Of a stretch of DNA of 42,640 bases, positions 29,408-35,761 are shown piece by piece. The DNA is taken from contig JASHUY010000122.1 in the NCBI GenBank assembly GCA_030039755.1, positions 1-42,640 on the forward strand, written 5' to 3'. The position numbers and the translations under genes were made by a program. This stretch comes from Acidimicrobiales bacterium (lineage in GTDB: Bacteria; Actinomycetota; Acidimicrobiia; Acidimicrobiales; RAAP-2). The notes beneath the pieces are model-generated. The model had not been told where the DNA came from. It saw nothing but the letters and a program-made list of their open reading frames with translations, and did no database searches. Position 1 is the stretch's first letter, and every line of letters starts with the position of its first letter.

Positions 29408-30292
29408 ATGACGTTCCGTCGCCTCGTGCTCGTGGGCAGTCTGTTGGTCGCCGGTTCCGGCCTCGGCGCGGGCAGCTTCGCCACGGTGAGCGCCGCCCTC
29501 CCGGACGGCCAGGGACCGGGAAACACCGCGCCGCTCAACTCCTGCTCGTACTCGGCGATCCAGCCCTTCCTCTACTCGCCGGGGCACCTCACGATCGCGA
29601 CGGACGCACCTGCCTACCCGCCGTGGTTCGAGCACAACGTGCCGTCGAACGGCAAGGGGTACGAGAGCGCCGTCGCGTATGCGGTCGCGAAGCAGCTCGG
29701 CTTCAAGTCCTCGCAGGTCGAATGGGTCGTCGAGCCGTTCAACGCCTCTTACGCCCCTGGGCCGAAGCACTTCGACTTCGACATCAACGAGATCTCGGTG
29801 ACGGCGACACGTGCCAAGGCTGTGACCTTCAGCGTCGGCTACTACACAGACCAAGAGGCGCTGGTCGCGCTCAAGGGGACCCCGATCACCAAGCACCACA
29901 CACCTGCGGCGCTCAAGACCTACGTCTTCGGTGAGGAGATCGGGACGACGAGCCTCCAGTTCATCGACGAGCGGATCCAGCCGGTCCACACGCCGGAGAC
30001 GTTCACAACGCTGAACGACGTGAAGTCCGCGCTCCAGGACCATCGCATCGAAGCGTTCGTGACAGACACGCCGACGTCCCAGTACATCGCGACAACAGAG
30101 ATCCCGCACGCCGTGGTCGTGGGGCAGTTCCCGAGCACAGGCCAGCACTACGGGCTCCTGTTCCAGAAGGGTGACAAGCTCGTCAAGTGCGTGAACAAGG
30201 CGATCGACCACTTGAAGCGCGCCGGGGTGCTGCGCCGTCTCGTGAAGAAGTACCTGCGCGTCTACACGTCGATCCCCCTCATCAAGCCCTGA
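29408..30292 (+). CDS. Polar amino acid ABC importer, substrate-binding protein (family 3)
   Basis: A 294-residue secreted protein with a Sec signal (TFRRLVLVGSLLVAGSGLGAGSF) and no lipobox. It has the type 3 binding fold: LTIATDAPAYPPWFE, GKGYESAVAYAVAKQLGF, DFDINEISVTATRAKAVTFSVGYY and the second-lobe IGTTSLQFID. The aromatic and acidic residues that grip an amino acid (YPPWFE and DINEIS) are in the expected places; the specific amino acid is not predictable. Permease and ATPase genes follow on the same strand. Confidence 0.92.
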   Translation: MTFRRLVLVGSLLVAGSGLGAGSFATVSAALPDGQGPGNTAPLNSCSYSAIQPFLYSPGHLTIATDAPAYPPWFEHNVPSNGKGYESAVAYAVAKQLGFKSSQVEWVVEPFNASYAPGPKHFDFDINEISVTATRAKAVTFSVGYYTDQEALVALKGTPITKHHTPAALKTYVFGEEIGTTSLQFIDERIQPVHTPETFTTLNDVKSALQDHRIEAFVTDTPTSQYIATTEIPHAVVVGQFPSTGQHYGLLFQKGDKLVKCVNKAIDHLKRAGVLRRLVKKYLRVYTSIPLIKP

Positions 30293-30329
30293 GCGGCGAC
30301 GCCCCGGCGAAGGGCACTGAGACACCGGC

Positions 30330-31280
30330 GTGACAGGAACGCCGATCGGTCCGGGCGGGCCGCCGGGGATCGTGGGCGACACCGCAGGCTCCGCCGGGGT
30401 CGGCGCCGGCGGGCTCGACACGGACTTCTCCCGGAGCCGCAGGAGCCGACTGCTCCGCTCACCGCGCGGCGCGGTCGTCACTTCGACGGTCAGCACGCTG
30501 GCCGTGCTCGGTGCGATCGTGGCGGCCTTCCTCCTCGCTCCGGGGAGCCGTGCGGTGCGGGCGACCTATTTCAACGCCCACGACATGTGGCGTGCGTTCA
30601 TCGGCGACCCCCACGAGGGCTTCTACTCCATCGGGAAGGGGATCGTGGTGAACATCGAGATGTTCACCATCGGCGAAGTCGTCATCTTGGTGCTGGCTCT
30701 CGTCATCGCGCTGATCCGCCAGTCGAAGTCGCCCGTCCTCTTCCCCTTGCGGATGATCGCGGTCGCATACGTCGACTTCTTCCGCGGCGTGCCGCTGATC
30801 CTGGTCATCCTCGCGATCGGCTTCGGCCTCCCCGCGCTGTACCTTCCGTTCATCTCGTCCCAGTCGGCGTTCGTCTACGGCGTGCTCTCCCTCGTGCTCG
30901 CCTACAGCGCCTACGTCTCCGAGGTGTACCGCGCCGGTCTCAACTCCGTCCCGCTGAGCCAGGTCGCCTCCGCGCGGTCGCTCGGCCTCCGACCGCGCAC
31001 CGCGATGCGCTACGTCGTGCTTCCCCAGGCGGTGCGGACCATCGTCCCGCCGCTCCTGAACGACTTCATCAGCCTCCAGAAGGACACCGCGCTCGTCGCG
31101 GTGCTCGGGGCGGTCATCGAGGCGAACCGGGCGGCGGAGATCTACTCGAGCACCGTGTTCAACTACTCGGGCTACACCGTCGCCGCCGTTCTCTTCCTCG
31201 TGATCACGATCCCGCTCGCGCGCTTCACCGACCACCTGATCGCGCGCGACCGTGCTCGCCGCCTCGCGGGGGCGGCGTGA
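30330..31280 (+). CDS. Polar amino acid ABC importer permease (HisM/GlnP family)
   Basis: A 316-residue membrane protein. After a Gly-rich cytoplasmic tail of about 45 residues it has the His/Glu/Gln/Arg/opine permease signature YVDFFRGVPLILVIL, SAYVSEVYRAGLNSVP, and the EAA loop ARSLGLRPRTAMRYVVLPQAVR. One permease gene suggests a homodimeric channel. Its stop overlaps the ATPase start (GTGA), so the two are coupled. Confidence 0.92.
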   Translation: MTGTPIGPGGPPGIVGDTAGSAGVGAGGLDTDFSRSRRSRLLRSPRGAVVTSTVSTLAVLGAIVAAFLLAPGSRAVRATYFNAHDMWRAFIGDPHEGFYSIGKGIVVNIEMFTIGEVVILVLALVIALIRQSKSPVLFPLRMIAVAYVDFFRGVPLILVILAIGFGLPALYLPFISSQSAFVYGVLSLVLAYSAYVSEVYRAGLNSVPLSQVASARSLGLRPRTAMRYVVLPQAVRTIVPPLLNDFISLQKDTALVAVLGAVIEANRAAEIYSSTVFNYSGYTVAAVLFLVITIPLARFTDHLIARDRARRLAGAA

Positions 31281-32110
31281 GCCTCCCCCAAGCGCGGCAC
31301 GAGGCGGCTGCGGCACAGGCCGGTGCGGCACCGGCGACGGCTCCACCGGCGATGGACGCCACGGCCGGCACGGCCCTGCGGATCGAGGGAGTCCACAAGG
31401 CCTTCGGCACGAACCACGTGCTGAAGGGCGTCGACCTCGCCGTCGACACCCACCAGGTGATCTGCCTCATCGGCGCGTCGGGGTCGGGGAAGTCGACGCT
31501 CTTGCGCTGCGTGGACCTGCTCGAGGCCATCGACCGCGGCCGGATCGTCTTCTTCGGCCATGACGTCACCCGGCGCGAGGTGGACGAGATCCGCGTCCGG
31601 CGTCAGATGGGGATGGTGTTCCAGTCCTTCAACCTCTTCCCGCACCTGCGCGTGCTCCGGAACGTCACGCTCGCACCCGTAAAGGCCCTCGGGATGGCGA
31701 CGACCGACGCGGAGGAGGAGGCCATGGCGCTCCTCACCAGGTTCGGGCTGGCCGACAAGTCGCACGACTACCCCGACCGCCTCTCGGGCGGCCAGCAGCA
31801 GCGCGTGGCGATCATCAGGGCGCTGGCCATGCACCCGAAGCTCATGCTCCTCGACGAGGTGACGAGCGCGTTGGACCCCGAGCTCGTCGGCGAAGTCCTC
31901 GACGTGATCCGCGAGCTCGCGGCCGGCGGCATGACGATGCTCGTCGCAACCCACGAGATGGGCTTCGCACGCGAGACGGCGACCCGGGTCGTCTTCCTCG
32001 AAGACGGGGTCATCGTCGAGCAGGGACCGCCCGGCCAGTTGTTCGACGCACCGCGCGACGATCGGACCAAGCGCTTCTTGGGACGGGTGCTGAACGCCGG
32101 GAGGATGTAG
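31277..32110 (+). CDS. Polar amino acid ABC importer ATPase (GlnQ/HisP family)
   Basis: A 277-residue ATPase that drives the importer. It has Walker A (GASGSGKSTLLRCV), Q-loop (GMVFQSFNLFPHL), ABC signature (LSGGQQQRVAIIRAL), Walker B (LMLLDEVTSALDPE) and the H-switch (VATHEMGFARE), all typical of polar amino acid importers. About 30 Ala-rich residues precede the ATPase core. The GTG start overlaps the permease stop by GTGA. Confidence 0.94.
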   Translation: MSLPQARHEAAAAQAGAAPATAPPAMDATAGTALRIEGVHKAFGTNHVLKGVDLAVDTHQVICLIGASGSGKSTLLRCVDLLEAIDRGRIVFFGHDVTRREVDEIRVRRQMGMVFQSFNLFPHLRVLRNVTLAPVKALGMATTDAEEEAMALLTRFGLADKSHDYPDRLSGGQQQRVAIIRALAMHPKLMLLDEVTSALDPELVGEVLDVIRELAAGGMTMLVATHEMGFARETATRVVFLEDGVIVEQGPPGQLFDAPRDDRTKRFLGRVLNAGRM

Positions 32111-32187: not shown

Positions 32188-32763
32188 TCAGGCTGTCTCG
32201 CCGTAGGACTGGCGCAGGCGCCAGGTGCTCTCGGGAAAGCGCGACTTCAGGGCGTGCCACGCCGCTACGAGCTGCTTGGAATCATGGGACGCCTTGTAGC
32301 GGGCGACCCCGAGGAAGTACAGCGCCTCCGGCGCGCTCGCCGCCGTCGGCTGCTGCTCCACCACCGCGGCGAAGCCCTCGGCGGCCCGCTCGTTCTCTCC
32401 GAGGCGGAGCCATCCCTGCGCCTCTGCCACGAGCGTCTGGGCGAGGAATTCGTACGGCGGGAGGTACCCGTTCCAGCGGTAGAGCTCGACGCCGTCACCG
32501 TCGAGCACGCGCAAGTCGGGAGTCCACGCCTGGCGGAACCGCCGGACCAGCGCCGTGTTGGCCTCGTCGGTCGTGTCGATCCGGCAGGCGACGAAACGCT
32601 GCACGATCGCCTCTCGGACTTGGGCGTTCGGGTACGTCACGGCACCCAGCTTCTGGCAACCCCCTCAGGTCGGCGAGAAGAAGTCGACGAGGACGAGCTT
32701 CCCCTCCCTGCCCGCCCGGCGCGTCGCCTCGTCGGGGTCCTTCAGCCAATCGATGTCAGCCAC
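32188..32763 (-). CDS. Thioredoxin-fold/TPR protein with in-frame TGA: candidate selenoprotein
   Basis: The GTG at 32763, with a GGAGGTGG Shine-Dalgarno, opens a frame reading VADIDWLKDPDEA, GKLVLVDFFSPT, then TGA (codon 33, bases 32665-32667), then GGCQKLGAVTYPNAQVREAI and on to a normal stop. Total length is 191 residues if TGA is read as selenocysteine. Related thioredoxin-like proteins read VDFF.P.C..C..M.AVTYPD, so the TGA replaces exactly the first redox cysteine, giving Sec-Gly-Gly-Cys. The rest is intact: RFVACRIDTTDE, LYRWNGYLPPYEF, then a TPR-like helical end. The function is probably a cytoplasmic thiol/selenol reductase or peroxide-handling protein. No selA, selB, selC or selD is visible in the window, so decoding is inferred; a Cys-to-stop mutation is the alternative. 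Confidence 0.75.
32641..32661 (-). promoter_or_regulatory. Possible bacterial SECIS-like stem-loop after the TGA
   Basis: In the mRNA, bases 9-19 after the UGA form CCAG-AAG-CUGG, a 4-base-pair stem. It extends across a 2x2 mismatch to GGU/GCC (positions 4-6 and 22-24). Position and the G in the apical loop fit a short SelB-binding hairpin, but the stem is small and such hairpins arise by chance in GC-rich DNA. Confidence 0.4.
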
Positions 32764-32802
32764 CGGCCACCTCCGTCCCGACCCCCCGGACACTCGGCCG
32801 GG

Positions 32803-34149
32803 TCAGCGCAGCACCTCGGTGACCGCGCGTTCGAGCACGTCGAGCCCCTCTTCGAGGAGCTCGTCGCCGATGACGAGCGGCGGGAGCAGCCGCACCACGT
32901 TGCCCCACGTGCCGCAGGTGAGCACGATCACGCCGTTGGCGTGGCACGTGCGCGCGACCGCCTGCGCGGCACCTGCGTCGGGTCGCAGGTCGTCGGGGCT
33001 CGCGAGCTCGATGGCGAGCATCGCGCCGAGTCCGCGCACGTCCGCGACCGCCGCGTGCTGCTTCGCCATGGACTCGAGCCGCGGGCGGACCTGGGCCTCG
33101 ATCCGGCGGGCCGCCGCGGGAAGATCGAGCTCGCGCATCGTGCGGATGGCGGCGAGGGCGGCGGCGCACGCCACCGGGTTGCCTCCGTAGGTGCCGCCGA
33201 GCCCGCCCGGGTGGACCGAGTCCATCAGCCCGGCGCGGCCGGTCACCGCGGCGAGCGGCATCCCTGCGGCCATGCCCTTCGCCGTCGTCACGAGGTCGGG
33301 CACGACACCCTCGTGCTCGCTCGCGAACCACGCCCCGGTGCGGGCGAAGCCCGATTGGATCTCGTCGGCGACGAACACGATCCCGTGCTCCGCGCACCAC
33401 GAGGCGAGCACCGGCAGAAATCCCGGTGCCGGCACCACGAAGCCGCCCTCCCCCTGGATCGGCTCGATCAGGACGCACGCGAGGTTGTCCGCGCCAACCT
33501 GCACCGAGAGCTGGTCGATCGCGCGCGCCGCCGCCTGCTCGCCCGTCATCCCCTCGGGGTCGCGCAACGGGTACGACATCGGTGCGCGGTACACCTCCGG
33601 AGCGAAGGGCCCGAAGCGGTCCTTGTACGGGAAGTTCTTCGCCGTGAGCGCCATCGTCAGGTTGGTCCGGCCGTGGTACGCGTGGTCGAACACCGCCACC
33701 GCCTGGCGCCCCGTCGCGTGGCGGGCGATCTTGACCGCGTTCTCGACCGCCTCGGCGCCCGAGTTGAACAGGGCCGAGCGTTTCTCGTGCCCGCCCGGGG
33801 TGAGGTCCGCGAGCTCTTCGCAGACGGCCACGTAGCCTTCGTACGGCGCCACCATGAAGCAGGTGTGGGTGAAGCGGGCCACCTGCTCGCCCACCGCCTG
33901 GACCACCGCCGGGACCGCGTGGCCGATGCTCGTGACCGCGATACCCGATCCGAGGTCGATCAGGCAGTTGCCGTCGACGTCCCGCACGATCGCCCCTGCG
34001 GCGTCGTCCACGTACACCTGGGTGACGCTCGAGACTCCCTGAGCGACGGCGCGCCCACGTCTCGACGCGAGCTCCTTCGAGCGGGGCCCGGGGATGTCGG
34101 TGACGAGGACCCTCCGCTGGGGGATCGCGTCGCTGTCGTGCTGGGTCAC
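32803..34149 (-). CDS. Class III aminotransferase, 4-aminobutyrate transaminase-like
   Basis: A 448-residue PLP-dependent aminotransferase. The cofactor lysine is in [16 protein letters not shown], the PLP-phosphate site in [16 protein letters not shown], the stacking aromatic in [14 protein letters not shown] and the PLP-aspartate in [15 protein letters not shown]. The sequence matches the GabT group (transfer from 4-aminobutyrate to 2-oxoglutarate), though related omega-amino acids are possible. The GTG at 34149 follows AGGAGGTG, a very strong Shine-Dalgarno. It is transcribed in the same direction as the candidate selenoprotein, 39 bases ahead of it. Confidence 0.9.
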
Positions 34150-34267
34150 CGCGCACCTCCTCGGGAGCCGGCCCGTGGGTCGGCGGTCGTCGCTCGCCAG
34201 TGTAGGTCCGCGCCCCGCGACGCACTCCGTCGACGGTGCCGCGCGCGCGACGGCGGCCGTCGACCGT

Positions 34268-35761
34268 TCATCGGCGCGCGCGCCCGTCGGCCAACGCGGC
34301 GTCGCCCGTGGGGTGGGTGGCGACGGGGACGGGCAGCCGGCGATCGGCGGCCGTCCCGTCCTGTGCATCCGCGCGCAACCGGCGCGGGAGGCGCGCGCTC
34401 ACGACGACGGCACAGAGCCCCACCGCTTCGCTGAAGGCGAACGCCGTGCCTGCACCGAGCCGGTGCCCGGCCGCAGCGACCGTGGCCGCGACGAGGGCCC
34501 CGGCGCCCCCGGCCCCGATCGCCTGCCCGAGCACGTCGAAGACCTGCAGCGAGGCAGTCGCCGCGCCTTCCTCGCCCTCCGCCGCGGCATCGAGCGTCGT
34601 GACGGACATCGGGGCGTACGCGAGTCCCATGCCACCGCCCGCCACGCCCCAGGCGACGATGCCGATCCACGACGGGAGCGAAGGGAGCAGGGTGAGGCCC
34701 ATGAGCGCGAGCCCCGTGAGCGCGACGCACACTCCGGCGCGGACGAGGCGGCGGGGCCCGACGCGCCGGATGAACTTCGCCTGTCCCCACGACCCCGCCG
34801 TCCAGGTGATGGTCGACGCCATCAGCGCGAAGGCCGACAGCGACGTCGGGGCGTGCCGCACGATCGTGAGGGCGTACGGGACGTAGGCCTCTCCCCCGAA
34901 GAAGAAGCACGTGACCAGCCCGCGACTGAGGATGGTCGCCGGAAGCCCGGGGGCGGCGGCGAGCGTGCCGCGTGGCGCGAGCTTCCGCAGGGAGACGAGG
35001 AGCAGGGCCGCGCCCACGACGACCCCTGCTGCGGCGGCCGGCGCGCGGCCGACGTCGCTCAGGGAGCCGAGAGCCAGCGCCCCGCCCCCGATCACGCCGA
35101 GCACCGGCAGGTAGGGCGGCGCGGCGTTTCCACGAAGGCGCGTCGGCACGGCCACGCCGCGGAGCGCGAGCACCGCCAGGATGCCGGCGACGAGCACCAG
35201 CGGTAGGAGGCCGAGGAAGACCCAACGCCATCCCACGGTCGTCGCGACGAACGCGGCCGCCACGGGGCCGACGAGGCCCGGGACGACCCAGGCGGTCGAG
35301 ATGACCGCGAACATGCGTGGCCGCAGCGCGTCGGGGTAGCCGCGCGAGATGGCGACGTAGGCGACGGCGGGGACGACGCCGGCGCCGAGCCCCTGCACGG
35401 CACGGCCGGCGACGAGCACGGGCATGTCGGGTGCCAGCCCGCCGATGACGAGGCCGCAGGCGAACAACGAGAGACCCACCACCATCGGGCCGATCAGTCG
35501 CCCCCGGTCTGCGAGCGTTCCCGCGACGACGATGCCGAGCAGGCTCGAGAGCAAGAACGCGCTGAAGACCCAGCCGTACAGCCGGAGGTCGCCGAGATGG
35601 CGGCTCACGATCGGGAGGATCGTCGCGACGGACAGCGCCTCGAACGCGACGACCGTGACGGCGAGCGCGATGCCGATCGTGACCGTCCGGCGCTCCCTCG
35701 ACATGACGCCGGCCCGGCTCGACGCTCCGTGCCCCTTCCCCGCCGCGTCCTCGACCGTCAC
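34268..35761 (-). CDS. MFS transporter
   Basis: A 497-residue membrane protein with 12 or more helices. Helix 1 carries FEALSVATILPIVSRHLGD, the motif-A loop is VVAGTLADRGRLIGP, and a second-half region reads GGMGLAYAPMSVTTLDAA. The layout suggests a drug- or metabolite-exporting member; its substrate is unknown. The GTG at 35761 and an ATG at 35704 are both possible starts, and the latter gives a shorter cytoplasmic tail. It lies between ornithine carbamoyltransferase and the GabT-like gene but need not be functionally linked. Confidence 0.88.
   Translation of the reverse strand: MTVEDAAGKGHGASSRAGVMSRERRTVTIGIALAVTVVAFEALSVATILPIVSRHLGDLRLYGWVFSAFLLSSLLGIVVAGTLADRGRLIGPMVVGLSLFACGLVIGGLAPDMPVLVAGRAVQGLGAGVVPAVAYVAISRGYPDALRPRMFAVISTAWVVPGLVGPVAAAFVATTVGWRWVFLGLLPLVLVAGILAVLALRGVAVPTRLRGNAAPPYLPVLGVIGGGALALGSLSDVGRAPAAAAGVVVGAALLLVSLRKLAPRGTLAAAPGLPATILSRGLVTCFFFGGEAYVPYALTIVRHAPTSLSAFALMASTITWTAGSWGQAKFIRRVGPRRLVRAGVCVALTGLALMGLTLLPSLPSWIGIVAWGVAGGGMGLAYAPMSVTTLDAAAEGEEGAATASLQVFDVLGQAIGAGGAGALVAATVAAAGHRLGAGTAFAFSEAVGLCAVVVSARLPRRLRADAQDGTAADRRLPVPVATHPTGDAALADGRARR

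Follow-up and report, generated by a model that had tools for sequence, protein, structure and literature searches.

A candidate selenocysteine-containing thioredoxin/TPR-like protein from an Acidimicrobiales genome, with UGA-encoded relatives in several phyla

Whether a TGA that interrupts a reading frame after 32 codons marks its end or encodes selenocysteine (Sec) is the question raised by a locus at positions 32188..32763 (minus strand) of a 42,640-nucleotide stretch of Acidimicrobiales DNA, hereafter the window. The frame opens with a GTG at 32763, preceded at 5 nt by a Shine-Dalgarno-like GGAGGT (32769..32774, minus strand), and, with TGA read as U, runs from 32763 to 32188 over 192 codons: 32 from the GTG, the UGA itself (codon 33, 32665..32667), 158 further codons and a terminal TGA, so that the putative selenoprotein gene has 191 codons plus the terminal TGA. 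A sequence-only reading had described the start, its Shine-Dalgarno sequence and the 32 codons before the TGA, giving no strand, and all are borne out on the minus strand. It had also drawn attention to the uninterrupted 158-codon continuation; this continuation is real but weak as evidence, since at least 158 open codons follow 100 of the 730 TGA triplets in this window of 71% GC, and read-through length was rejected as an argument for that reason. What raises the frame above chance is a Thioredoxin_2 match running across the UGA, together with the conservation of the column in which the UGA lies. Ordinary ORF rules split such UGA genes in two, and the table-11 ORF list indeed contains, as had been anticipated for standard gene calling, a 150-aa piece alone from this frame, starting with the GTG at 32640 and devoid of the active site.

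Read across the UGA, the protein has matches to the Pfam families Thioredoxin_2 (8.4e-13) and Thioredoxin_7 (2.2e-10), PF13098 being the best Pfam match, and the UGA takes the position of the first Cys of the CxxC in the motif VDFFSPT-U-GGC-QK, exactly where the sequence-only reading had placed it and where the homologue alignment also puts it. The resolving cysteine of the UGGC motif, C36 (32656..32658, minus strand), is invariant in a 20-row alignment termed A5, as is P82, whereas T81 is kept in at least 90% of rows; T81-P82 (32518..32523, minus strand) is taken here to be the cis-proline position of the thioredoxin fold. The features that characterize thioredoxin-fold UxxC proteins, namely the fold, a UxxC/CxxC motif and a conserved proline at the cis-Pro position, are all found. 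An AlphaFold model computed with 18 sequences (mean pLDDT 94.4, pTM 0.89) has a thioredoxin domain up to about residue 100, followed by five helices, and the model and its structure matches delimit a C-terminal TPR-like helical region at residues 103-184 (32212..32457, minus strand). In VIA-align comparisons the first part of the model matches DsbDγ and related thioredoxins with Z values of 12-13.5 (12.2-12.8 for the DsbDγ structures 1vrs, 1uc7 and 2fwe), and the second part matches the TPR domains of BamD and YbgF with Z values of 12.9-13.4, a Z near 13 being modest for helical repeats and the YbgF match having an rmsd of 6.0. The model thus shows a predicted architecture of a DsbDγ-like thioredoxin domain followed by TPR-like helices, in line with the thioredoxin/TPR make-up proposed earlier, with TPR_16 staying below the Pfam cut-off for the window protein itself. 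Inspection by eye revealed no signal peptide or membrane part, and the protein is probably cytosolic; a signal peptide is seen in some Planctomycetota members of the family.

The simplest account of the TGA would be a sequencing error or a pseudogene, that is, a damaged Cys codon in an ordinary CxxC thioredoxin, true or dead, and the source assembly is indeed a fragmented MAG (2.98 Mb in 247 contigs, 70% complete). The same TGA, however, is present in a second MAG of the genus (G011), whose orthologue, with 83-84% identity and one inner TGA, is the sole close one among 198 relatives, and it recurs in 91 distinct contexts across phyla. Moreover, dN/dS between the two species is 0.28 before the UGA, a value based on 17 changes only, and 0.18 after it, and purifying selection looks to be acting on both sides of the codon; a damaged Cys codon is hardly credible against these data. 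The selection estimates bear equally on the view that the UGA is a true stop, so that the product would be a peptide of 32 residues or else the 150-aa piece. Such a view agrees with the ORF list and with the frequency of long chance read-through in this window, but the first 32 codons evolve as protein and belong to the thioredoxin domain, the 150-aa piece is without the active site, and both the UGA column and a downstream hairpin are conserved, which makes a true stop highly improbable.

The alignment of homologues, proposed by the sequence-only reading as a check, places UGA in most of this column and Cys in few of its rows. Within the phylum (396 genomes), the UGA is found in six further full-length matches, at 34-39% identity, and Cys in one (G476). 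Scanning named genomes yielded 33 loci, comprising 21 family members, with UGA in the column in 21/21, and 12 CxxC thioredoxins; by record title or rank, the 21 members span seven phyla (Actinomycetota, Chloroflexota, Planctomycetota, Myxococcota, Thermodesulfobacteriota, Armatimonadota and Cyanobacteriota, the last two through one MAG each). In three other phyla, for which 395, 392 and 400 genomes were searched, matches at 1e-15 occur in 123, 175 and 35 genomes, counts that take in partial and thioredoxin-only matches. An inner TGA is present in 148 of the 160 strong matches in those phyla (100 bits or more across 170 or more positions) and absent from 12, as read from match tables that include the query genes, the position of the TGA being checked for the fetched loci only. 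When full-length matches were checked by position (for the most part those with the best scores, the shorter match L075 being excluded), TGA was found in 103 of 105 cases and TGC in 2; since some genes are in the locus set twice (the window gene as L020, L021 as L074, and others), distinct genes are counted here, giving 91 TGA and 2 TGC among 93. Cys forms may be under-sampled because UGA forms alone went into the search profiles, the 20 members of the query profile A5 being UGA forms without exception. The active sites of the distinct genes read UIGC (40), UGGC (19), UTGC (7), URGC (7), USGC (5) and UPAC (5), followed by rarer ones.

Some loci recovered in these searches deserve mention in their own right. 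Adjacent UGA paralogues occur in Planctomycetota genomes (L165, L175), one copy having UTGC or UAGC and the other UTSC or UASC. One member (L090/L164) has an in-frame TAA in addition to the UGA and is either a decayed copy or an assembly error. Two other short thioredoxin-like ORFs with an active-site UGA (L052 and L057; motifs UGAC and UPSC), lipoprotein-like by eye, are possibly further selenoproteins.

A search of the same genome for selA, selB, selC and selD, also proposed by the sequence-only reading, detected all four. The selC gene (tRNA-Sec) scores 67.2 bits and has the anticodon tca; selA and selD are adjacent and over the cut-off; and a SelB-type factor, in a frame that reaches the contig end, scores 227.6 against an NCBIfam cut-off of 242.25 and is therefore below it, with its SelB beta-barrel domain over the Pfam cut-off. 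Other genomes of the genus have a tRNA-Sec over the cut-off in 11 of 12 cases. With strict filters tRNA-Sec was found in 55 of 64 UGA genomes (none in the other 9), in 5 of 10 non-UGA genomes and in 6 of 6 without a listed match, the test set covering 64 of about 132 UGA genomes and 6 of the 27 no-match genomes, and such co-occurrence is mildly informative. In the named set, tRNA-Sec is over the cut-off in 24 of 25 UGA genomes, two of them weakly (about 50 bits), and there is none in the one Cys-form genome.

The tRNA also bears on the identity of the inserted amino acid, as UGA might instead specify Cys, through a tRNA that accepts Cys and has a UCA anticodon, or Trp, through a changed code. 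Cys-charged tRNASec-like tRNAs do exist, and the base after the acceptor stem is G in tRNASec and U in tRNACys. The selC of the source genome has G at this place, like tRNASec, and selA and selD are present; in addition, the column aligns with Cys and not with Trp, and UGA is also a stop here, since the gene itself ends at TGA. Decoding as either Cys or Trp is most unlikely, and Sec is the preferred reading. Beside selC lies a second UGA gene (L224:3454-5070, minus strand, contig G000:C219), which encodes an NHL/YNCE-type beta-propeller fused to a redoxin domain with a UGPC motif; at 10 of the 12 genus loci looked at, the sequence flanking selC contains this motif, and a 'Redoxin family protein' with UxxC appears in the list of PMC13188914.

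A SECIS-like hairpin is predicted at 32629..32648 (minus strand), with the stem UGGGUGC/GUACCCG of 7 bp and the loop CGUGAC; the stem starts 16 nt after the UGA, the loop begins 23 nt after it (spacing 23), and the folding energy is -9.9 kcal/mol. The bacterial SECIS rule given in section 5 of PMC13188914 asks for a loop of 3-9 nt, a stem of 4-16 bp, a G at the first or second base of the loop, a distance of 16-37 nt from the UGA and an MFE of at most -7.5. The window hairpin agrees with it, as do about a quarter of shuffles: in our own implementation the rule holds in 82 of 91 distinct UGA contexts, compared with 70 of 273 shuffled sequences and 119 of 308 windows from other parts of these genes. 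Folding energy compared with shuffles over a 46-56 nt region gave no excess stability in any of 4 windows (z 0.22 to -0.66), and as energy alone gave no signal the case for a SECIS rests on comparison. All six inner stem pairs are formed in 83 of 91 UGA genes (8 are without the full stem) and in 0 of 11 Cys homologues, these being the 13 non-UGA rows minus L232 and L236, which have no Cys at the site; the contrast is partly confounded, because the stem lies over codons for conserved residues (AVTY or similar), a stretch in which the Cys forms have a different protein sequence as well.

The protein-independent part of the hairpin case is provided by synonymous bases. In one stem pair, the second base of an Asp/Gly codon is matched with the third base of a Tyr codon, and the two covary: with Asp the Tyr codon is UAU in 54 genes and UAC in 1, and with Gly it is UAC in 22 and UAU in 1 (Fisher p 3.7e-17, uncorrected for kinship), whereas other Tyr codons are used alike in both groups (148 TAC and 131 TAT versus 93 TAC and 68 TAT). 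In addition, the Thr/Ser codon of the motif has a final G in 84 of 91 genes, ACG accounting for 29% of the other Thr codons in these genes. On the tree, covariation falls short of significance because starred branches offer only five independent pairs, of which a mean of 4.2 agree and 0 oppose (median p 0.125). Given its synonymous covariation, the hairpin lends itself to tests of SelB recognition outside E. coli.

The marks of a SECIS-dependent selenoprotein, namely a UGA at a redox-Cys column, a bacterial SECIS hairpin and selA, selB, selC and selD in the genome, are thus found together at the level of sequence. On the grounds given above for each, the readings as a pseudogene or sequencing error, as a codon for Cys or Trp and as a true stop were rejected. 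The Sec-Gly-Gly-Cys active site suggested by the sequence-only reading has gained from the machinery in the genome, the UGA column, selection on both sides and a hairpin found in most UGA forms versus none of the 11 Cys homologues, so that the Sec reading of the UGA is well supported by comparison. The locus very probably encodes a selenoprotein with a Sec-Gly-Gly-Cys DsbDγ-like thioredoxin domain and a TPR-like tail, in which UGA 33 would be recoded by way of the hairpin and which would act as a client reductase, the reductase function being inferred. From the comparison of homologues and the gene content, UGA 33 would be recoded by SelB with Sec-tRNA(UCA), directed by the hairpin that starts 16 nt past the UGA. 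By the chemistry of thioredoxins, the Sec selenolate would attack client disulfides or oxidised thiols, after which Cys36 would resolve the mixed selenosulfide and an enzyme of the thioredoxin-reductase type would regenerate the protein; judging by the architecture, the task of the TPR-like tail is probably to select or hold clients, on the model of CnoX and other Trx-TPR proteins. The advantage of Sec over Cys could be tested within one protein by comparing the natural Sec and Cys forms of this family.

A different role has been considered, in which the Sec protein mainly reduces peroxides, methionine sulfoxide or metalloids and is docked to one enzyme by its TPR tail, instead of being a general client reductase or chaperedoxin. 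In the window, the gene follows a class-III aminotransferase gene on the same strand after a 39-nt gap (32803..34368, minus strand), itself preceded by an overlapping MFS transporter ORF (34268..35761, minus strand), and is convergent with an amino-acid-type ABC transporter (29408-32110, plus strand). The copy in the same-genus MAG has an apparent aminotransferase end upstream, by eye, and part of an ABC ATPase beside the gene too. In one Actinomycetota group the members L077, L084 and L085 lie directly upstream of pyruvate:ferredoxin oxidoreductase (POR) subunit genes. A dedicated role could be read from such neighbours, which vary by lineage: POR subunits in that actinobacterial group, a hemerythrin gene in Planctomycetota and the aminotransferase here. 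No neighbour shared by the family emerged, however, from 22 loci, whose flanks reached at most 4 kb and in many cases less (11 kb in the window); the clusters looked at, other than that of the gene itself, contain 3 to 5 loci each, some being opposite-strand shadows. One fixed partner encoded next door is therefore unlikely, and a dedicated reductase appears a possible but rather doubtful alternative to the client reductase. A plasmid search gave no match at 1e-10.

The distribution of the gene among phyla was addressed with a quick, unrooted tree of 104 rows, from which 12 duplicate loci had been dropped. With starred support (97*, 98*), the window gene and its sister group with rows from Chloroflexota and lie away from the remaining Actinomycetota rows. 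This suggests transfer between phyla, and the lineage may have acquired the gene, hairpin included, from a Chloroflexota-like source. Non-UGA rows fall into one starred clade in 10 of 13 cases, the other three being placed singly; these homologues (L226-L236, L184 and L051) often have CxxS, and L232 and L236 are without the first Cys. An evenly balanced proposition is that the window protein belongs to a large Trx-TPR family without a name, dominated by Sec (a possible 'selenochaperedoxin') and found in at least seven phyla, in which Sec is usual, the Cys forms belong mostly to one clade, are perhaps derived and are hairpin-less, and the gene and its SECIS move together between phyla.

Several known systems resemble the window protein in part. 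The closest in the catalogues is the 'thiol:disulfide interchange protein' class (PF13098, UxxC, reference WP_011366075.1; PMC13188914, Table 1), or 'Trx-like 2' in the GOS survey (cd02953; PMC2398784), recorded for Syntrophus and Geobacter species (PMC1794560). A UxxC thioredoxin domain is common to both, and PF13098 with UxxC, a mark of that class, is found in the window protein, whose family possibly overlaps with it; the comparison is by description, and the descriptions of the class mention no TPR tail. Several catalogued thioredoxin-like selenoprotein classes are Cys-dominated, the GOS survey giving, for example, 22 Sec versus 2,098 Cys homologues for 'Trx-like 2' and 321 versus 7,880 for another (PMC2398784), whereas UGA dominates here (148 of 160 strong matches, with profiles from UGA forms). 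Table 1 of the 2026 catalogue of 119 families (PMC13188914) names no Trx-TPR family. The sequence-only reading had been aware of no such selenoprotein in actinobacteria; this stands in so far as no described Trx-TPR selenoprotein was found among the listed titles and abstract starts of open-licence PMC papers, but the protein is not an isolated oddity, its family being present in several phyla and in more than one Actinomycetota lineage.

In NCBIfam release 20.0 the window protein has 13 families listed, none over the cut-off, and the 20 members of A5 have 14 families listed, which are other proteins with modest scores (best E 2.4e-15), cut-offs having been compared for the window protein only. 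Among these, the Trx7/PDZ and VPGUxxT (seleno)proteins are Sec-containing and thioredoxin-like too, with weak profile matches, but the window protein is far below their cut-offs (20.7 versus 300 and 30.4 versus 275 bits). DsbD carries electrons in the membrane and has CxxC; its gamma domain has the same thioredoxin subfold (Z 12.2-12.8), whereas the window protein is small and has no signal peptide or membrane part by eye. CnoX/YbbN combines an N-terminal Trx and a C-terminal TPR domain, as in the window model (PMC6282202, section 10), and differs from it in having CxxC or SxxC and not UxxC; YbbN heads the Foldseek list, with a poor superposition on the model (TMq 0.37, rmsd 11.1 over 171 columns), and is absent from the phmmer list at E 0.1. 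Caulobacter CnoX is described in the same section as a CxxC Trx-TPR reductase recycled by thioredoxin reductase, and this precedent, which implies no claim of membership, makes a client reductase of the same kind, with Sec in place of the first Cys, a reasonable working model for the window protein.
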